This document shows, piece after piece, positions 1,844 through 18,009 of a stretch of DNA of 64,000 nt. Made by a program: the position numbers and the translations under genes. The stretch lies in assembly GCF_003044185.1 (NCBI RefSeq), contig NZ_PYYB01000001.1:2872978-2936977 (forward strand), in the 5' to 3' direction. Source of the DNA: Paraconexibacter algicola (GTDB lineage Bacteria; Actinomycetota; Thermoleophilia; Solirubrobacterales; Solirubrobacteraceae). Each line of letters opens with the position of its first letter. Position 1 is the first letter of the stretch. The notes below the pieces were generated by a model. That model was not told where the DNA came from. It saw only the letters and a list, made by a program, of their open reading frames with translations, and did no database searches.

Positions 1844-2956
1844 ATGAAGATCCGAGCAGCTGTCCTGGAGGAGTTCGGCGCACCCCTGGTGGTGCAGGAA
1901 GTCGACCTCGCCGAGCCGAAGGCCGGGGAGGTGCTCGTCCGCGTCGTCGCGTGCGGCGTGTGCCACACCGACATGTACACCGCCTCCGGCGTCGACCCGT
2001 CCGGCTACGCGCCGACCGTGCTCGGGCACGAGGGCGCCGGCGTCGTCGAGCGCGTGGGGGAAGGCGTCAGCTCGCTGAAGGTCGGTGATCACGTCGTCAC
2101 CCTGTTCGCGCCGCAGTGCCGCGAGTGCGACCACTGCACCTCCGGCAAGACGAACCTCTGCATGGCGATCCGCGCCGAGCAGAACAACGGCTACCTGCCC
2201 GACGGGACCACGCGCCTGTCCCGCGACGGCGAGCCCATCCGGCACTTCATGGGCACGTCGACCTTCGCGGAGTACACGGTCATGCCCGAGATCGCGCTCG
2301 CGAAGATCAACCCCGAGGCCCCGCTGGACCGCGCCTGCCTGTTCGCCTGCGGCCTGTCGACCGGGCTCGGCGCGGCGATGAACACCGCCAAGGTCGAGGC
2401 GGGCTCCACCTGCGTCGTCTTCGGCGCCGGCATGGTCGGCCTCGGCGCGGTCGCCGGCTGTCGCCTGCAGAACGCCGGGCGGATCGTCTGCGTGGACCTC
2501 TCCAGCGACCGGCTCGAGCTCGCCAAGGGGCAGGGCGCCACCGACACGATCGTCGCCGACGAGCACACCACCGAGAAGATCCTCGAGATGACCGGTGGCA
2601 TGGGCGCCGACTACACCTTCGAGGCGACCGGGCTCGTCACGGTCATGCAGCAGGCCGTCGAGACCGCCCGCATGGGCTGGGGTCTCGCCACCATGGCCGG
2701 GGTCGCCGGCAAGGGCGAGACGCTCGACGTCATCCCCCGCTGGCTCATCCAGGGCCGCCGCGTCGCCGGCTCCTCGTTCGGCGGCGTCAAGGGCCGCGAC
2801 GAGGTCCCGCAGCTCGTGCAGCGCTACCTCGACGGCGACATCGACGTCGACGCGTTCATGTCGCACCGCATCACCCTCGACGAGGTCAACAAGGGCTTCG
2901 ACCTGATGCACCACCAGGACGGCATCCGCTCGGTCATCGAGATGGGGACCGCCTGA
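1844..2956 (+). CDS. Zinc-dependent alcohol dehydrogenase (MDR family, NDMA-dependent type)
   Basis: This 370-residue medium-chain dehydrogenase should interconvert alcohols and aldehydes with a nicotinamide cofactor. ACGVCHTD at about residue 37 carries the catalytic-zinc Cys, and GHEGAGVVERVGEGV at about 66-80 holds the conserved His-Glu. Four cysteines in CRECDHCTSGKTNLC (about 93-107) bind the structural zinc. VFGAGMVGLGAVAG at about 192-205 is the coenzyme Rossmann loop. Actinobacterial members with this architecture often keep NAD(H) tightly bound and are assayed with the artificial acceptor NDMA; that assignment is an inference from overall similarity. It stands alone, with its own -10 box at 1832 and a hairpin after the stop. 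Confidence 0.88.
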   Translation: MKIRAAVLEEFGAPLVVQEVDLAEPKAGEVLVRVVACGVCHTDMYTASGVDPSGYAPTVLGHEGAGVVERVGEGVSSLKVGDHVVTLFAPQCRECDHCTSGKTNLCMAIRAEQNNGYLPDGTTRLSRDGEPIRHFMGTSTFAEYTVMPEIALAKINPEAPLDRACLFACGLSTGLGAAMNTAKVEAGSTCVVFGAGMVGLGAVAGCRLQNAGRIVCVDLSSDRLELAKGQGATDTIVADEHTTEKILEMTGGMGADYTFEATGLVTVMQQAVETARMGWGLATMAGVAGKGETLDVIPRWLIQGRRVAGSSFGGVKGRDEVPQLVQRYLDGDIDVDAFMSHRITLDEVNKGFDLMHHQDGIRSVIEMGTA

Positions 2957-2967
2957 GCGGTCCGGTG

Positions 2968-2995
2968 GGCGGGGCCTCCCTGCGGGCGCCCCGCC
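2968..2995. terminator. Hairpin between convergent genes
   Basis: GGCGGGGC at 2968-2975 pairs perfectly with GCCCCGCC at 2988-2995 across a 12-nt loop. It lies between the stop of the alcohol dehydrogenase and the stop of the opposing gene, so it could end both transcripts. There is no U-tract. Confidence 0.45.
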
Positions 2996-2998
2996 GCG

Positions 2999-3550
2999 CT
3001 AGATCCCGGCCGCCGGCGGCGGCCAGCCCGGCTCCATCTCGTACTCGTCGTCCTCGCCGAGCGTGATCACCAGCGGGTCGTTGCCGCGGGCCGAGATCGA
3101 GATCGGGGTGTCCGGGTCGTTCGTGCGCCACGTGGCGATCACCGCGTCGCGCGGGCCGATGCGGCGGGTCAGGCCGATCACCGCCTCGGCGTAGTGCTCG
3201 ACGCCGCCGATCATCGCGGCGATCTCCCCGGTCTCCCGGTTGACCTCGAACGGCGGGAGCTGACGGACCTCGGGCACGTCGGGCTCCGGGACGTCGAGCT
3301 CGATCGCGTGCGGGAGCTGGAAGACCTGCTCGTCCACGACCACCTCGATCGGGAGCAGCTGCCCGACGTCGACGAGCGCCGGGCCCTCGCCGACCCCGTG
3401 CTCCATCAGCGCGATCGCGCGGATCGCGCCGCTGCGGTGCAGGAACTCGCGCAGGAGCGCGACGACCGGGTCGAGCGGACCGACGGACGCGACGAGCACC
3501 GCGGGCTCGTCGTCGTCGCGCTGCGGGTCGGGGCCGGGGGCGTCGTCCAT
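2999..3550 (-). CDS. Hypothetical acidic protein
   Basis: I do not recognise this 183-residue protein. It has no signal peptide or membrane segment, is rich in Asp, Glu and Pro, and has no cysteine or metal motif that I can see. A much longer open frame continues upstream to 4018, but that part is antisense to the histidine kinase. I therefore start at the ATG at 3550, which lies just outside the divergent kinase gene. The C-terminal half (about residues 105-175) alternates short hydrophobic runs and turns, as in a small beta-rich domain. Codon bias is normal, and an opposite-strand shadow is unlikely because no other gene covers the region. Confidence 0.65.
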   Translation of the reverse strand: MDDAPGPDPQRDDDEPAVLVASVGPLDPVVALLREFLHRSGAIRAIALMEHGVGEGPALVDVGQLLPIEVVVDEQVFQLPHAIELDVPEPDVPEVRQLPPFEVNRETGEIAAMIGGVEHYAEAVIGLTRRIGPRDAVIATWRTNDPDTPISISARGNDPLVITLGEDDEYEMEPGWPPPAAGI

Positions 3551-3607
3551 GCTCCCATGGTGCCATGTGGCTTCAGTCGGGCGCCCTTCCTGCCGAAGGA
3601 GGTCGGG

Positions 3608-4714
3608 ATGGCGTCTCGCCCCGCCCCGGTTCCCCACCCCGACGAAGCTGCGAAGCAGGTCGCACTTGCCGACCTCTCCGGGGAGCTGCTCGCGCTCCTG
3701 CGCCCGGGTGGCGAGGTCGTCGACGCCAACAGCGCGTGGACGGAGCTGCTCGACTTCGAGCCCGGGATGGGCGTCGACGCCCTGCGGCAGCGGCTGCACG
3801 AGGACGACCGGCTCGCGTTCGAGGAGGCCCGCCGCACGGTCCTCCAGGGCGGCGACGTCCACGGCCAGGTCGTCCGCTTCCTCGCCCCCGACGGCCGCTG
3901 GCTCGAGCTGGAGTGGAGCTGCCGGCTGCTCGCCGACCACGGCCTGCTCGCGATCCGCGGGCGCGACGTCACCGAGCAGCGCCAGCTCGCCCGCGAGCAC
4001 GACCGGCGCGCCCGCCACCTCGAGCAGGTCAACGACGAGCTGCGCGAGTTCGCCTACGTCGCCTCACACGACCTCTCCGAGCCGCTGCGCATGGTCACCA
4101 GCTACCTCGACCTCGTCCGTCGCCGCTACGACGAGCAGCTCGACGACACCGGCCGCGAGTTCATCCACTTCGCCGTCGACGGGGCGCACCGGATGCGCGC
4201 CCTGATCGACGACCTGCTGCGCTACTCGCGCATCGGCGGCGCGCTCCCCGACCACGCGCCCGTCGACCTCGACGCGCTGCTGCGGACCGTCTGCCAGGAC
4301 CTCGAGGAGACGATCGGGGAGGCCGGCGCGACGATCGAGGCCGCGCCGCTCGGCACCGTCGTCGGCGACGCCACCATGCTCGGGCAGCTGCTGCAGAACC
4401 TGCTCGTCAACGCCGTGAAGTTCCGCACCGCCGAGCGCGCCCCGCACGTCACCCTCGGCGCCCGCCGCACCGGCGGCACGCTCGTCCTCGAGGTCAGCGA
4501 CAACGGCATCGGCATCGACGCCACGCAGCTCGAGCGGATCTTCCAGGTGTTCACGCGCCTGCACTCGCGCGACGAGTACGACGGCACCGGCATCGGGCTC
4601 TCGATCTGCCGGCGGATCTGCGAGCGCCACGGCGGCACGATCACCGCCCGCTCGGTCCCCGGCGAGGGCACGACCTTCGTCGTCACCCTCCGCGACGAGG
4701 CGGTCGGCGCATGA
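3608..4714 (+). CDS. PAS-type sensor histidine kinase (phytochrome-like HisKA class)
   Basis: This 368-residue cytosolic kinase has no membrane segment. Residues about 15-130 look like a PAS/PAC fold (ELLALLRPGGEVVDANSAW, then a tail ending RGRDVTEQRQLA). The dimerisation helix carries ASHDLSEPLRMV with the phospho-acceptor at His154. The ATPase domain shows LLQNLLVNAVKF (N box, about 265), DNGIGID (G1, about 301) and GTGIGLSICRRI (G2, about 328). I use the ATG at 3608 because AAGGAGG stands 5-6 nt before it; the open frame extends far upstream only by chance. The stop overlaps the next ATG (ATGA), so the kinase and the REC-GGDEF-EAL protein are probably translated together and form one signalling pair. 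Confidence 0.9.
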   Translation: MASRPAPVPHPDEAAKQVALADLSGELLALLRPGGEVVDANSAWTELLDFEPGMGVDALRQRLHEDDRLAFEEARRTVLQGGDVHGQVVRFLAPDGRWLELEWSCRLLADHGLLAIRGRDVTEQRQLAREHDRRARHLEQVNDELREFAYVASHDLSEPLRMVTSYLDLVRRRYDEQLDDTGREFIHFAVDGAHRMRALIDDLLRYSRIGGALPDHAPVDLDALLRTVCQDLEETIGEAGATIEAAPLGTVVGDATMLGQLLQNLLVNAVKFRTAERAPHVTLGARRTGGTLVLEVSDNGIGIDATQLERIFQVFTRLHSRDEYDGTGIGLSICRRICERHGGTITARSVPGEGTTFVVTLRDEAVGA

Positions 4715-9088: not shown

Positions 9089-9721
9089 TCAGGCGACGCG
9101 GCCGCTGATCGGCCGGCCGTCCGCGTCCCACAGGTTCAGCCGGCCGGCGCCGTCCGGGTACTCGCCCATCGCCGCCTTGTAGGCGCCGTCGTCCCCGTAC
9201 AGCTCGAGCGTCGCCGGGCCCTCCGCGCGCTGCCCGACGCGGGTGCGCAGCGTCCCGTCGCCGTCCAGCAGCTCGATGCCCGTCGCCCCGTCCGGCCAGA
9301 CGCCGAGGCCGGCGCGGTAGCTGCCGTCGCGGTCCCAGAACTCGACGCTCGCCTCCCGCTCGGGCTCGGGACCCTGGGCGAGCGCGGCGCGCAGGTGCCC
9401 GGCGGCGTCCCAGACCATCGCGCCCGCCGGACGGCCCGGGGCGTGGCCGACGCTCACGCGGTGGTTGCGGGCCTCGTCGAAGACGTCCAGGCCGCTGGAG
9501 CCGTCCAGCCAGGACCCGACCGCGACCCGGAACGTGCCGGCCCCGTCGGCGAGCTTCAGGGCGCTCGACCCGTTCGGCTCGACCGTCAGCGTGGCGCGCA
9601 CCAGTCCCTGCTCGTCGGCGAGGTCGAGGGACAGCGCGCCGTCGGGCGCGGTGCCCAGCCGGGCGCGGACCCGGCCCTCCTCGTCGACGACCTCGAAGGC
9701 GGTGGCGCGAACGGTCTCCAT
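9089..9721 (-). CDS. Protein built of eight tandem 23-residue repeats
   Basis: I do not know a named family for this 210-residue protein. After 12 residues it consists almost wholly of repeats of the form DxxGxxRAxLGxxPDGxxxLxLx, one beta-hairpin each, ending with a partial ninth copy (DADGRPISGRVA). Unit lengths are 23, 23, 23, 23, 25, 23, 23 and 23, which fill residues 13-198. There is no signal peptide, cysteine or catalytic motif. Such regular short hairpins suggest a beta-solenoid or prism used for binding or structure. The ATG at 9721 is the natural start. It lies 36 bp downstream of the propeller gene start on the same strand and may be transcribed with it. Confidence 0.75.
   Translation of the reverse strand: METVRATAFEVVDEEGRVRARLGTAPDGALSLDLADEQGLVRATLTVEPNGSSALKLADGAGTFRVAVGSWLDGSSGLDVFDEARNHRVSVGHAPGRPAGAMVWDAAGHLRAALAQGPEPEREASVEFWDRDGSYRAGLGVWPDGATGIELLDGDGTLRTRVGQRAEGPATLELYGDDGAYKAAMGEYPDGAGRLNLWDADGRPISGRVA
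9128..9685 (-). repeat. Eight tandem coding repeats of about 69 bp
   Basis: The repeats are clear at the protein level (period 23 residues, one unit of 25) but have diverged in DNA. Conserved positions are the first Asp, the Gly at +3, Arg or Lys at +6, Gly at about +10, and PDG at about +13 to +15. Confidence 0.8.
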
Positions 9722-12472: not shown

Positions 12473-13358
12473 CGGAGCCCACCTCCTCCGCCGCGGTCTC
12501 CGCGGTCAGCTCCAGGTACACGTCCTCGAGCGTCGGCCGGGTGACGCTCAGCTCGCGCAGCGGCTCGTCGCGCGCGAGCGCCGCGCTCGTGAGCTGGTGC
12601 AGCAGGGCGGTGGGGTCCTCGGTCTCGCGCGTCTCGAGGTCGCCCGCCTCCGTCCGCCAGGTGACGCGGTAGCGGGAGGAGCCGACGCCGAGCGCCGCGG
12701 GCGGACCCTGCGCGACGATGCTGCCCTCCTTGAGGATCGCCACGCGGTCGCACAGCGCCTGCGCCTCGTCGAGGTAGTGCGTGGTCAGCAGCACGGTCTT
12801 GCCGAGGTCCTGCAGCGAGCGCACGACGTCCCACGCGGCGCGACGGGCGGCCGGGTCGAAGCCCGTGGTCGGCTCGTCGAGGAAGATCAGCTCCGGGTCG
12901 CCGACGAGCGCGAGCGCGAAGTCCAGGCGCCGGGCCTTGCCGCCGCTGAGCGTGCGGACGCGCTGCTCGCCGACGTCGCCGAGGCCGGCGAGCGCCAGCA
13001 CCTCGTCGACGTCGCGCGGCCGCGGGTAGAGCTTGGCGAAGTGCGCGACCGCCTCGCGGACCCCGATGTGCCGGTACATGCCCGTGGACTGCAGGACGAT
13101 CCCGACGCGGGAGCGCAGCTCGCGGGGCCGCTGCGCGGGGTCGTGGCCGAGCACGGAGACGATCCCGCTCGTGCGCGTGCGGTACCCCTCCAGGATCTCG
13201 ACCGTCGTGGTCTTCCCGGCCCCGTTGGGACCGAGCAGGCCGAAGACCTCGCCGCGGTGGACGTCGAAGTCGATGCCGCGGACGGCCTCGTGCGCACCGT
13301 AGGCGCGCCGGAGTTCGCGGACGAGGATCGCGATGTCTGCCGAGGGGCTGGCCGGCAT
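12465..13358 (-). CDS. ABC exporter ATPase (DrrA-like)
   Basis: This 297-residue ATPase has Walker A LLGPNGAGKTTTVEIL (about 36), the signature LSGGKARRLDFALAL (about 136), Walker B LIFLDEPTTGFDPAARR (about 157) and the switch His in VLLTTHYLDEA. The C-terminal 80 residues are the extra domain found in DrrA-type ATPases. It drives the permease encoded next, with which it overlaps by 8 bp. Its start region is divergent from ppx. An in-frame ATG near residue 11 is not present, so I keep the ATG at 13358. Confidence 0.92.
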   Translation of the reverse strand: MPASPSADIAILVRELRRAYGAHEAVRGIDFDVHRGEVFGLLGPNGAGKTTTVEILEGYRTRTSGIVSVLGHDPAQRPRELRSRVGIVLQSTGMYRHIGVREAVAHFAKLYPRPRDVDEVLALAGLGDVGEQRVRTLSGGKARRLDFALALVGDPELIFLDEPTTGFDPAARRAAWDVVRSLQDLGKTVLLTTHYLDEAQALCDRVAILKEGSIVAQGPPAALGVGSSRYRVTWRTEAGDLETRETEDPTALLHQLTSAALARDEPLRELSVTRPTLEDVYLELTAETAAEEVGSGG

Positions 13359-13389
13359 CAGTGCCCCGCATCATGTCAAGGTGGGGTCC

Positions 13390-14301
13390 TTGCGGTGCGC
13401 CTGCATCGACATCGGCAGCAACACCACGCGGCTCCTCGTGGCCGAGCCGGACGGCTCGACGCTGCGCGATCTCGACGGTGTCCGCGCGTTCACGCGCATC
13501 GGCGCGGCCTGCCGGGAGGACGGCACGATCCCGCGCGAGAAGATCGACGAGGTCGCGCTGACGGTCGCCTCGCAGAAGGCGATCGCGTCCGCCGCGGGCG
13601 CCGAGCGGCTGCGCGCGGTGGCCACCGCGGCGATCCGCCGCGCGCCGAACCGCGACGAGCTGCTCGCGGCGATCCGCGAGCGCAGCGGCGTCGAGGTCGA
13701 GGTGCTCAGCGGGGAGGACGAGGCGCGCCTGGCGTTCCTCGGGGCGACCGGGTCGTGCCCCGGCGCGGTGGTGCTCGACGCGGAGGGCCCGGTCGCGGTC
13801 GTCGACGTCGGGGGCGGCTCGACGGAGATCGTCGTCGGCACCCCGGGCGGCACGGTCGACTGGGTGGTGTCGGTGCCGCTGGGATCGAGCGTCCTGCCGA
13901 TCGAGCGCCCCGAGCCCGACGGGGTCCCCGACCCCGCGTCGGTCGCCGCGGCGCGCGCCGCCGCCCTGCAGGGCTTCGACGGGATCACGCCGCCCGCCGT
14001 GACGCGCGCGGTCGCGGTCGGCGGCAGCGCCACGTCGCTGCGGCTGCTCGCGGGCGAGACGCTGTCCCCCGCGGGGCTCGACCGCGCCCTCGACGTGCTG
14101 CTCGAGCTGCCCGTCGACGCGGTCGTCGAGCGGTTCGCGCTGCACCCCGACCGCGTGCGGATGCTGCCCGCGGGGCTCGTGCTGCTCGGCGCCGCCTCCG
14201 GGGCGCTCGGCGGGCGCCCGCTGGAGGTCGGTCGCGGCGGTCTGCGCGAGGGCGTCGTGCTCGAGGAGCTGGAACGTGGCGGGTGGTCGGCCGCCGGGTA
14301 A
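13390..14301 (+). CDS. ppx: Exopolyphosphatase (Ppx/GppA family)
   Basis: This 303-residue protein should remove terminal phosphates from polyphosphate (or hydrolyse pppGpp). It has the ASKHA ATPase fold: IDIGSNTTRLLVAE at the N-terminus (phosphate-1 loop), VLSGEDEARLAFLG, VAVVDVGGGSTEIVVG (about 134) and AVAVGGSATSLRLL near 210. Its length matches short single-module Ppx enzymes. I start at TTG 13390 because AAGGTGG lies about 6 nt before it and the resulting MRCACIDIGSN fits the family; GTG 13381 and an ATG at 13333 are alternatives. It heads the polyphosphate cluster with two CHAD genes and ppk. Confidence 0.88.
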   Translation: MRCACIDIGSNTTRLLVAEPDGSTLRDLDGVRAFTRIGAACREDGTIPREKIDEVALTVASQKAIASAAGAERLRAVATAAIRRAPNRDELLAAIRERSGVEVEVLSGEDEARLAFLGATGSCPGAVVLDAEGPVAVVDVGGGSTEIVVGTPGGTVDWVVSVPLGSSVLPIERPEPDGVPDPASVAAARAAALQGFDGITPPAVTRAVAVGGSATSLRLLAGETLSPAGLDRALDVLLELPVDAVVERFALHPDRVRMLPAGLVLLGAASGALGGRPLEVGRGGLREGVVLEELERGGWSAAG

Positions 14302-14310: not shown

Positions 14311-15231
14311 GTGGCCAAGGCACGACCGATCAAGGGCCTCTCCCCGGACATGCGCTTCGGCGACGCGGCCGCGCGCACCGTCCGCGTCCGTGCGCAGGAG
14401 CTGATCGACCACAGCGAGGGCGTCCTCGACACGAGCTCGATCCAGCGCGTCCACGCCATGCGCGTCGCCAGCCGTCGCCTGCGTGCCGTGCTGGAGATCC
14501 ACCGGGCCTGCTTCCCGCCCGAGCTGTTCAAGCCCGTGCTGCGCGAGGTCAAGGACCTGGCCGACGCCCTCGGCGCGCGCCGCGACCCGGACGTGCAGCT
14601 CGCGTCGATCGAGGAGTTCGCCGCCGCGCTCGGCGCGGGCGAGCAGGCCGGGATCGCGCTGTTCGCCGACCGCCTGCGCGCCGAGCAGGAGGAGGGCAAC
14701 CGCGTGCTCGCCGACGCGCTCGCGCGGATGCGCCACAGCGACCTGCCCGCCCGCCTGCAGGAGCTCGCCGACAGCGCTACGACCCCGGAGCCTGCGGTGG
14801 AGGACGTCTCCGCGGAGGCGCCCGAGTCGCCTGCCGCCGAGTCCGTGGACGTCTCCGCGGAGGTGCCGGGCGTCCCGGTCGCCGGCCCTGCAGACGCCTC
14901 CGCGGAGGTGCCGGACGTCCCGGCGGCCGAGCCCGCAGACGCCTCCGCGGAGGTGCCGGACGTCCCGGCGGCCGAGCCCACGGACGTCTCCGCGGAGGTG
15001 CCGGACGCCCCGGCCACCGGCCCGTGGGAGGGGCGGCCGGCGCTCTGGGACCTGCCGGCGCAGCCCGCGGCCGGTCCCGCCGCCACCCCGCTCGGGGAGC
15101 GGCCTCCCCGACCGCCGCGCCCGCCCCGGCCCGCGCCGGCGCGGCCGGACGCCGACCCGGCCACGGGCACCGACCTCGCGCCCGCGCCGACGCGGACCGG
15201 GCTGCTGCGCGTCCTGCGGAGGTCCCGATGA
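14311..15231 (+). CDS. CHAD-domain protein, N-terminal-half type, with tandem-repeat tail
   Basis: CHAD domains are alpha-helical bundles that bind polyphosphate with conserved His, Arg and Lys residues. This 306-residue protein shows only the pattern of the first half of a CHAD domain: QRVHAMRVASRRLRAVLE (about residues 47-64) and LREVKDLADALGARRDPDVQL (about 76-96). The next half is in the following gene. Residues about 165-239 are five 15-residue Pro/Ala/Glu repeats, and the C-terminus is a Pro/Arg-rich tail ending in TGLLRVLRRSR. The first half is cytosolic and basic. GTG 14311 is the start. The stop overlaps the next ATG by 4 nt. Confidence 0.82.
   Translation: MAKARPIKGLSPDMRFGDAAARTVRVRAQELIDHSEGVLDTSSIQRVHAMRVASRRLRAVLEIHRACFPPELFKPVLREVKDLADALGARRDPDVQLASIEEFAAALGAGEQAGIALFADRLRAEQEEGNRVLADALARMRHSDLPARLQELADSATTPEPAVEDVSAEAPESPAAESVDVSAEVPGVPVAGPADASAEVPDVPAAEPADASAEVPDVPAAEPTDVSAEVPDAPATGPWEGRPALWDLPAQPAAGPAATPLGERPPRPPRPPRPAPARPDADPATGTDLAPAPTRTGLLRVLRRSR
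14803..15027 (+). repeat. Five tandem 45-bp coding repeats
   Basis: Each unit encodes 15 residues of the form DxSAEVPDVPAAEPx. Units 3 and 4 are nearly identical in DNA; units 1, 2 and 5 have diverged. They form an acidic, proline-rich and probably unstructured linker. Direct coding repeats with no spacers, so not a CRISPR. Confidence 0.9.
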
Positions 15232-15842
15232 AGGCCCGCAAGGTCGCGGGGCTCGACCCCGACGGCACGCTCGCCGACAACGTCGCGCGGATCGTCCTCA
15301 CCCGCCTCGACGAGCTCTGCGCGTTCATGCCCCGCGCCGAGGACCCCGAGGAGGTCGAGGCGCTGCACGACATGCGCATCGCGGCCAAGCGCCTGCGGTA
15401 CATCCTCGAGCTGCACCACGGGAACTTCGGGCCCTACGCCGCCGACGCGGCCAAGCGCGCCAAGCAGCTGCAGTCCGTCATCGGCGAGATCCACGACTGC
15501 GACGTGACGATCCCCCGCGTCGAGGAGCTGCTGGACGAGGCACGCCGCGCCGACGTCGCCGCGATCCGCGCCCGCGCCGCCGGGCAGGACGACATCGAGC
15601 CCGCGCTCGCCGCCGCGACCCCGCACGCCGAGGCCTACCAGGGTCTCGAGGCGATGCGCTCCTACCTGCAGGCCCGGCGCGAGCTGCTGTTCGAGGGCTT
15701 CCTGCGCACCTGGCTCGAGCTGCAGCGCGAGGGGTTCCGCCCGCGGCTGGAGTTCGCGCTCGGCGAGCGACCCGCGACGATCACACCGTCTTCACAGGAT
15801 GGCAACGTGGCGCGGGAGGAGCCGCACCTACCGTCCGGGTGA
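15228..15842 (+). CDS. CHAD-domain protein, C-terminal-half type
   Basis: This 204-residue helical protein carries the pattern normally found in the second half of a CHAD domain: EALHDMRIAAKRLRYILELHHG (about residues 44-65) and AKQLQSVIGEIHDCDVTIPRVEELL (about 80-104). The first-half pattern is in the gene just upstream, whose stop codon overlaps this ATG (ATGA). The simplest reading is that the two products assemble into one polyphosphate-binding domain. GGAGG stands 6 nt before the ATG, inside the upstream gene. The last 20 codons contain the PHO-box-like repeats and promoter of ppk. Confidence 0.85.
   Translation: MKARKVAGLDPDGTLADNVARIVLTRLDELCAFMPRAEDPEEVEALHDMRIAAKRLRYILELHHGNFGPYAADAAKRAKQLQSVIGEIHDCDVTIPRVEELLDEARRADVAAIRARAAGQDDIEPALAAATPHAEAYQGLEAMRSYLQARRELLFEGFLRTWLELQREGFRPRLEFALGERPATITPSSQDGNVAREEPHLPSG
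15779..15800 (+). promoter_or_regulatory. PHO-box-like direct repeats before ppk
   Basis: Two 11-bp units, GATCACACCGT and CTTCACAGGAT, place TCAC cores exactly 11 bp apart at 15781 and 15792. They abut the expected -35 position of the leaderless -10 box at 15829. They lie inside the end of the second CHAD gene. With only two good units, this is the weakest of the PHO-box calls. Confidence 0.5.
15829..15834 (+). promoter_or_regulatory. Putative -10 element of ppk
   Basis: TACCGT is followed by 9 nt and the ATG at 15844. The PHO-like repeats end about 28 bp upstream, a position suitable for activation. Confidence 0.45.
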
Positions 15843-15843
15843 C

Positions 15844-18009
15844 ATGAACGAGCCGCCCAGCACCCCCGAGGCCGTCCAGGAGCCGATCCGCGCCGTCGAC
15901 ACCACGGCCGTCGAGCAGGCCGTCGCGCCGGCGGTCCCGTCCGACCTCGACGCGCCCGCGCTGTACTTCAACCGCGAGCTGTCCTGGCTGGAGTTCAACA
16001 ACCGGGTGCTCCAGCTCGCCGAGGACGAGCGCCAGCCGCTGCTGGAGCGCGTGAAGTTCGTCGCGATCTTCAGCTCGAACCTCGACGAGTACGTGATGGT
16101 GCGCGTCGCCGGCCTGCACGACCAGATCGACGCCGGGCTCGTCGACCGCGGGCCGGACGGCCTGACGCCGTCCGAGACCGTCGACGCGATCCGCAAGCGC
16201 GTCGTCGAGCTGTGCGAGCGCCAGACCCGCTGCGTCGAGCGCGACCTGCGCCCGGCGCTCGAGCAGCACGGCATCCGGATCGTCGACCACGCGGACGTCG
16301 ACGAGCACGACCGGCGCGATCTCGCCGAGCGCTACCGCCGCCAGATCTTCCCCGTGCTCACGCCGCTGGCCGTCGGGCTCGGGCGGCCGTTCCCGTACAT
16401 CTCCAACCTGTCGCTCAGCCTCGCCGTGCTCGTGCGCGACCCGGTCAGCGGCGTCTCGACCTTCGCGCGCGTGAAGGTGCCCAAGGAGATGCTGCCGCGG
16501 TTCGTCGAGGTCGCCGAGCACGTCTTCGTGCCGCTCGAGCAGGTCATCGCCGCGCACCTCGACGCGCTGTTCCCCGGCATGGAGATCGTCGACCACGGCG
16601 TCTTCCGCGTCACCCGCGACGCCGACTTCCAGGTCTCCGACGAGGCCGACGACCTCCTGCGGGCGGTCGAGGCCGAGCTGCGCCGCCGCCGCTTCGGCGA
16701 GGTCGTGCGCGTCGAGATCGACAGCGCCATGAGCGACGGTCTGCGCGAGCAGCTCGTCGAGGCGCTCGGCGTCGAGCAGCGGCAGGTCTACGTCCAGGAC
16801 GGCCTGCTCGACCTCGGGGACCTCTGGCAGATCGTGAAGCTCGGCGGCTTCCCCGAGCTGCGCGACACCCCCTGGTCCCCGGTCACCCAGCCGCGGCTGC
16901 AAGGGGAGGACGGCCACCGCGCGGACCTGTTCGCCGCGATGCGCCAGGGCGACATCCTCGTCCACCACCCCTACGACTCGTTCAGCTCGTCGGTCGAGCG
17001 ATTCGTCGAGCAGGCGGTCAGCGACCCGGACGTCCTCGCGATCAAGCAGACCGTGTACCGGACCTCCGACGACTCGCCGCTGGTGCCCGCGCTGATCCGC
17101 GCGACCGAGCGCGGCAAGCAGGCGGTCTGCCTCGTGGAGCTGAAGGCGCGCTTCGACGAGCGCGCGAACATCGCCTGGGCGCGCGAGCTCGAGGAGGCGG
17201 GCGTCCACGTCGTCTACGGCCACCCGTCGCTGAAGACGCACGCGAAGTGCGTGCTCGTCGTGCGGCGCGAGGGCGACGGCGTGCGCCACTACGTCCACGT
17301 CGGGACCGGCAACTACCACTCGTCGACCGCGCGGCTCTACACCGACTTCGGCCTCTTCACCTGCGACGAGCAGATCGCCGGCGACGTCGCGGACATGTTC
17401 AACTTCCTCACCGGCTACGCGCGGCCGCGCGCGTCGCGCCGGGTGCTGGTCGCGCCCAACCACCTGCGCGACGGGATCATCGAGGAGATCGACGCGACGA
17501 TCGCCGCGCACCACGACGACGCGCCCGCGCGGATCGTCATGAAGATGAACTCGCTGGTCGACAAGAAGTGCATCCGGGCGCTCTACCGGGCCTCCCAGGC
17601 GGGGGTGCGGGTCGACCTGAACATCCGCGGCATCTGCTGCCTGGTGCCCGGCATCCCCGGCGTGTCGGAGAACGTCCACGTGACCTCGGTCGTCGGCCGC
17701 TTCCTCGAGCACTCGCGGATCTTCGGCTTCGAACGCGCGGGGGAGCTGCGGATCTACATCGGCTCCGCCGACCTCATGCCGCGCAACCTCGACACGCGCG
17801 TCGAGCTCGTCGCACCGGTCGACGATCCGGTGCTGCGCGACGACCTCGCCGACACGCTCGAGCGCTGCTTCGCCGACGACAGCAACGCCTGGGACCTCGA
17901 CGCCGACGGCACGTGGACGCGCCGCACCCCGGGCCCCGAGCCGCGCTCGGTGCACCGCGAGCTGATGCTCGGCCACCAGGCCCGCGCCGCCGAGGGCCCG
18001 GCGGCCTAG
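15844..18009 (+). CDS. ppk: Polyphosphate kinase 1
   Basis: This 721-residue enzyme makes polyphosphate from the gamma-phosphate of ATP. After a 40-residue acidic lead it has YFNRELSWLEFNNRVLQLA, the start of the PPK1 N domain, and AIFSSNLDEYVMVRVAGL. The catalytic phospholipase-D-like modules include LKTHAKCVLVVRR (phospho-acceptor His) and VHVGTGNYHSSTARLYTDFG, and later FLEHSRIFGFE with the second conserved His. Full length for the family. The ATG at 15844 is chosen over an in-frame ATG at 15799, because the latter falls within the promoter. It closes the cluster ppx, CHAD, CHAD, ppk and is followed by a large hairpin. Confidence 0.96.
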   Translation: MNEPPSTPEAVQEPIRAVDTTAVEQAVAPAVPSDLDAPALYFNRELSWLEFNNRVLQLAEDERQPLLERVKFVAIFSSNLDEYVMVRVAGLHDQIDAGLVDRGPDGLTPSETVDAIRKRVVELCERQTRCVERDLRPALEQHGIRIVDHADVDEHDRRDLAERYRRQIFPVLTPLAVGLGRPFPYISNLSLSLAVLVRDPVSGVSTFARVKVPKEMLPRFVEVAEHVFVPLEQVIAAHLDALFPGMEIVDHGVFRVTRDADFQVSDEADDLLRAVEAELRRRRFGEVVRVEIDSAMSDGLREQLVEALGVEQRQVYVQDGLLDLGDLWQIVKLGGFPELRDTPWSPVTQPRLQGEDGHRADLFAAMRQGDILVHHPYDSFSSSVERFVEQAVSDPDVLAIKQTVYRTSDDSPLVPALIRATERGKQAVCLVELKARFDERANIAWARELEEAGVHVVYGHPSLKTHAKCVLVVRREGDGVRHYVHVGTGNYHSSTARLYTDFGLFTCDEQIAGDVADMFNFLTGYARPRASRRVLVAPNHLRDGIIEEIDATIAAHHDDAPARIVMKMNSLVDKKCIRALYRASQAGVRVDLNIRGICCLVPGIPGVSENVHVTSVVGRFLEHSRIFGFERAGELRIYIGSADLMPRNLDTRVELVAPVDDPVLRDDLADTLERCFADDSNAWDLDADGTWTRRTPGPEPRSVHRELMLGHQARAAEGPAA

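Follow-up and report, generated by a model that had tools for sequence, protein, structure and literature searches.

Do the two overlapping reading frames that lie between a ppx and a ppk gene of Paraconexibacter algicola encode two proteins that together make up a single CHAD domain? CHAD, a polyphosphate (polyP)-binding module, occurs in all domains of life. Its two four-helix bundles are arranged about a pseudo-twofold axis, and polyP occupies the pore between the bundles (Lorenzo-Orts et al. 2019, PMC6537752). An initial annotation of the 64,000-nucleotide stretch of DNA analyzed here (the window) had read the two frames, here called chadN and chadC, as one such domain split over two genes and assembled as a heterodimer. 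On the evidence below, we consider it highly likely that chadN and chadC form an obligate, translationally coupled heterodimer constituting one polyP-binding CHAD, with dimerization, translational coupling and binding being the parts that we infer.

Gene organization of the locus

The following features, all on the forward strand, are referred to throughout (coordinates of the window):

13333–14301 (+), ppx, exopolyphosphatase of the Ppx/GppA family (PF02541, E 9.3e-38; start codon approximate)
14311–15231 (+), chadN, N-terminal CHAD half plus tail, 306 aa, GTG start, TGA stop (PF05235)
14452–14484 (+), N-half motif HAMRVASRRLR with H48, R51 and R55 (alignment to 6qv7)
14569–14595 (+), N-half motif LGARRDPDV with R91 (alignment to 6qv7)
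14773–15228 (+), variable Pro/Ala-rich disordered tail of chadN (pLDDT mostly 50–60; length differs among relatives)
14802–15024 (+), 45-bp tandem repeat in five copies within the chadN tail (repeat analysis)
15218–15222 (+), GGAGG, Shine-Dalgarno-like site inside chadN, 5 nt before the chadC start (sequence)
15228–15231 (+), ATGA, stop/start overlap of chadN and chadC (sequence)
15228–15842 (+), chadC, C-terminal CHAD half, 204 aa, ATG start (PF05235, half-domain tree)
15366–15401 (+), C-half motif HDMRIAAKRLRY with R57 and Y58 (alignment to CtCHAD)
15480–15506 (+), C-half motif IGEIHDCDV (sequence, alignment of pairs)
15844–18009 (+), ppk, polyphosphate kinase 1 (four PPK Pfam domains, E 1e-40 to 1e-71)

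The gene order is thus ppx, chadN, chadC, ppk, with ppx ending 9 nt before chadN and ppk starting 1 nt after the chadC stop codon. Both reading frames and their ATGA overlap were found in the sequence as the initial annotation had described them, as were the first-half motifs in chadN and the second-half motifs in chadC. Its placement of the pair between ppx and ppk was borne out by the PF02541 match upstream and by all four PPK domains downstream; TIGR03706 also matched ppx (E 1.6e-47), at a score below the cut-off of that model. The claim that each gene carries one CHAD half agrees with the PF05235 profile (228 positions), of which positions 7–137 matched chadN (E 1.1e-23, 84.9 bits) and positions 144–224 matched chadC (E 2.2e-18, 67.5 bits), at a curated cut-off of 25.6. 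A whole-genome profile search returned no CHAD matches besides these two, and the genome encodes one ppk1 and three Ppx/GppA homologs. Elsewhere in the window, an ORF at 9089–9721 on the reverse strand contains short internal repeats and adjoins an ORF resembling a beta-propeller sugar dehydrogenase.

The tail of chadN diverges from the fold where the second half of a canonical CHAD would begin. It is rich in Pro, Ala and Glu and ends in a short basic helix (residues 296–304). Among relatives, its length ranges from absent, in many, to about 145 aa; in genus g13, the N tails share a conserved KSGWLRRR motif at their ends.

Division of the predicted polyP site

Residues H253, R256, R260, R296, R418 and Y419 of CtCHAD matter for polyP binding (PMC6537752). 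HMMER alignment to 6qv7 (offset 204) equated the first four with H48, R51, R55 and R91 of chadN, and HMMER alignment equated R418 and Y419 with R57 and Y58 of chadC. All six were invariant in 88 of 88 aligned rows of split pairs, which represent 87 distinct pairs, L193 repeating L177. Because the contact residues are spread over chadN and chadC, the predicted polyP site is divided between two proteins, neither of which holds the complete set.

Covariation between N and C, calculated as APC-corrected mutual information over the 87 pairs, yielded apparently clade-driven signals only. In mirror-tree comparisons, the partial correlation of N with C (r = 0.50) was slightly above that of C with ppk (r = 0.45) and is weakly supportive.

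Structure models of the single and joined halves

Modeled alone with AF2, chadN adopted one four-helix half followed by the disordered tail, with pLDDT above 90 over most of residues 11–160. Compared with CtCHAD, this model matched about 155 of 316 residues (TM 0.44, normalized to the target). By this model for chadN, and by the profile match confined to positions 144–224 for chadC, neither protein alone holds two bundles in one polypeptide. The whole CHAD fold was reached when N and C were modeled as one chain, for which we used the relative L209 (Thermoleophilaceae), whose N and C frames are in phase and separated by TGA plus 18 nt; reading the TGA as tryptophan gives a continuous N+C chain. 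Its AF2 model was confident (pLDDT 91.7, pTM 0.87), with low values at the junction and tail only, although linkage in a single chain may have helped its assembly and canonical fused CHADs were present in the alignment. A search of this model against the PDB gave six significant matches, all of them CHAD (TM 0.66–0.81 on target length), the best being 3e0s_B with TM 0.81 over the whole target. A half fold for chadN and a whole fold for the joined chain are what a split domain, as initially annotated, predicts.

Distribution, pairing and gene junction

We searched 299 genomes from the class, Thermoleophilia, and 397 genomes from the phylum with a profile of the concatenated N and C cores. By manual count, both halves occurred in separate frames in 63 class genomes belonging to five families (f1, f2, f3, f5 and f10), and no lone half was found in this class-wide search. 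Those class genomes with a single match that were re-tested carried an ordinary canonical CHAD in a single ORF. Within the family of the window, the pair was present in about 40 of 101 genomes and absent altogether from some members; all 40 loci fetched encoded N and then C on the same strand, with ppk next, and the single halves met in this family survey were located at contig ends. Outside the class, split pairs were found in Candidatus Poribacteria, Armatimonadota (L212, L237), Chloroflexota (L250) and an unclassified bacterium (L266). Recurrence of the split in dozens of genomes excludes both chance and a local accident. It is very likely that N and C function as an obligate pair.

Most class loci are adjoined by ppk, ppx or both. 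In most of L175–L190 (Miltoncostaeaceae, f5), about 1.1 kb, with one intervening gene, separates the pair from a ppx-like gene and no ppk is nearby, and in L191 and L192 (f10) the order is ppk–N–C instead of N–C–ppk.

Read at base level and counted manually, the junctions between the two genes ranged from a 4-nt overlap to a 4-nt gap in all 73 class loci: 48 showed a 4-nt overlap, 13 a 1-nt overlap and the rest a gap of 0 to 4 nt. This range suggests that translation of N and C is coupled across the junction. The widest N–C gaps reach 99 nt (L208). In five loci (L193, L209, L210, L212 and L213), the N and C ORFs occupy one frame, interrupted by a single stop codon; this arrangement may be left over from fission through a stop mutation or could permit readthrough.

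Homology of the halves, fusion and fission

To place the two proteins relative to canonical domains, a tree was built from 110 halves (55 N and 55 C) of split, re-fused and canonical CHADs. One branch separated all N halves from all C halves (SH-aLRT 97), with split N proteins grouping with canonical N halves and split C proteins with canonical C halves. This division indicates that each protein is orthologous to one canonical half and did not arise by a fresh duplication. A topology uniting split N and split C as one clade was rejected (p-AU 2.4e-8). The two halves are homologous to each other, chadN and chadC being 36% identical over 101 aa, and both split proteins start with a similar MxKARxVxGL segment.

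Fused homologs, which the initial annotation had suggested looking for, were found in genus g29 (family f2), where both halves occupy one ORF at the same ppx–CHAD–ppk site (eight genes fetched). On the N+C tree, these proteins are nested within the split lineages (support 99), which identifies them as naturally fused N and C. In the sequences inspected, they have lost the H48 and R51 equivalents, perhaps because their function has changed or because they have degenerated since the fusion; that fusion here accompanies altered binding residues tells against the heterodimer reading. L153–L160 of this genus (for example L154, reverse strand, frame 2683–3753) have also lost the Lys of the second-half KRLRY motif, and one g29 genome (G322) carries two re-fused CHAD loci.

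The N+C tree implies at least six changes between the split and one-ORF states. Among CHADs outside the split lineages, those nearest to the pair in sequence are ppk/ppx-linked single-chain proteins. The split probably arose more than once, since the split pair L237 clusters with canonical Armatimonadota. A single origin gave p-AU 0.245 with N halves and 0.062 with N+C, and is thus no more than marginally disfavored, on N+C.

Proposed assembly and alternative explanations

We propose that one CHAD domain has been split at its pseudo-twofold axis, leaving one four-helix bundle per protein. Coupled translation across ATGA would yield the N and C proteins together, and these would assemble 1:1 into a heterodimer recreating the canonical CHAD. 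PolyP would then run across the pore and the basic surface between the bundles, with H48, R51, R55 and R91 provided by N and R57 and Y58 by C. Within the ppx–N–C–ppk operon, the pair could act as the phosin-like polyP-binding module of the cell, docking the enzymes or organizing polyP granules.

The main rival holds that each half homodimerizes, so that N2 and C2 would be two separate pseudo-CHADs encoded in one operon. This is conceivable because chadN and chadC are homologous, and the CHAD fold is nearly perfectly pseudo-twofold symmetric (PMC6537752). We nevertheless regard it as unlikely: the halves are strictly paired in the class-wide search, N and C each retain the residues, N-type or C-type, that distinguish the halves of canonical single-chain CHADs, and the g29 refusion joined them in N–C order. 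Programmed frameshifting or stop readthrough, which would yield one fused protein and make the split only formal, could draw on the five relatives with a shared frame and one intervening stop, but in the window chadC lies in a different frame from chadN and is preceded by its own Shine-Dalgarno-like site and start codon. By eye, we saw no slippery heptamer at the window junction (CGG AGG TCC CGA TGA). Across phyla, C has retained a start codon and an N-terminal motif of its own, junction sequences are unconserved and gaps extend to 99 nt, and we give this explanation very little credence.

Even less probable is an independent duplication of a half-CHAD that would leave N and C merely analogous to the canonical domain; the similar start of the two proteins is what one would cite for it, and the tree speaks against it, both in the branch that groups each protein with its canonical counterpart and in the rejected joint clade. 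A recently broken canonical gene, whether pseudogene or assembly error, has nothing in its favor except the split itself and is refuted because dozens of genomes from five families and several phyla share the split and keep the functional residues invariant, so that we assign it practically no probability. A further idea concerns the role of the split, taken as functional and not neutral. The half-CHADs might individually be weak or monomeric, with polyP (or the N tail) joining them, and so act as a bipartite sensor or glue for polyP; its assembly would signal polyP between ppx and ppk. A functional split of this kind would explain why the break falls at the symmetry axis and recurs in several phyla, and why every polyP residue is invariant in pairs whereas some are lost in the one re-fused lineage; we offer it as a speculative extension that we consider rather unlikely.

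Comparison with known CHAD proteins

The portions of the CHAD literature available to us describe single-chain domains, and within this incomplete coverage we found no split, heterodimeric or Thermoleophilia CHAD. A conserved two-gene CHAD shows that pseudo-symmetric bundles can be independent proteins. The pair lends itself to asking how each half takes part in polyP binding and points to a split reporter for polyP as a practical application; in addition, CHAD counts derived from whole-domain matches will miscount or miss split pairs.

The solved CHAD (PF05235) structures, namely CtCHAD (6qv7, 6qva, 3e0s), RcCHAD (6qv5) and PptA (6rn5), have the same fold as the joined pair (TM to target 0.66–0.81), and PF05235 domains share with the pair their motifs, polyP-contact residues and ppk/ppx neighborhood. 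In the solved structures found, both bundles lie in one chain, whereas the split pair consists of two gene products with no peptide bond between them and its N product bears a variable tail at the break. Phosins such as PptA likewise tie CHAD to polyP metabolism (PMC8003754), but carry the complete domain in one gene. CYTH/TTM-CHAD fusions of the E. coli YgiF type share CHAD homology with the pair, are single chains and form a branch distinct from the ppk-linked and split CHADs (support 99); in some relatives, long single-ORF proteins that are probably of this type occur alongside the split pair. Methanogen loci (L215, L217, L231 and other archaeal loci) contain clusters of ppk and a single-ORF CHAD, some followed by ppx, that are close to the split family. 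The single-chain proteins nearest to the pair in sequence, from methanogens, Synergistota and Planctomycetota (for example L215, L247, L224), often adjoin ppk and ppx as the pair does, but are encoded by one ORF.
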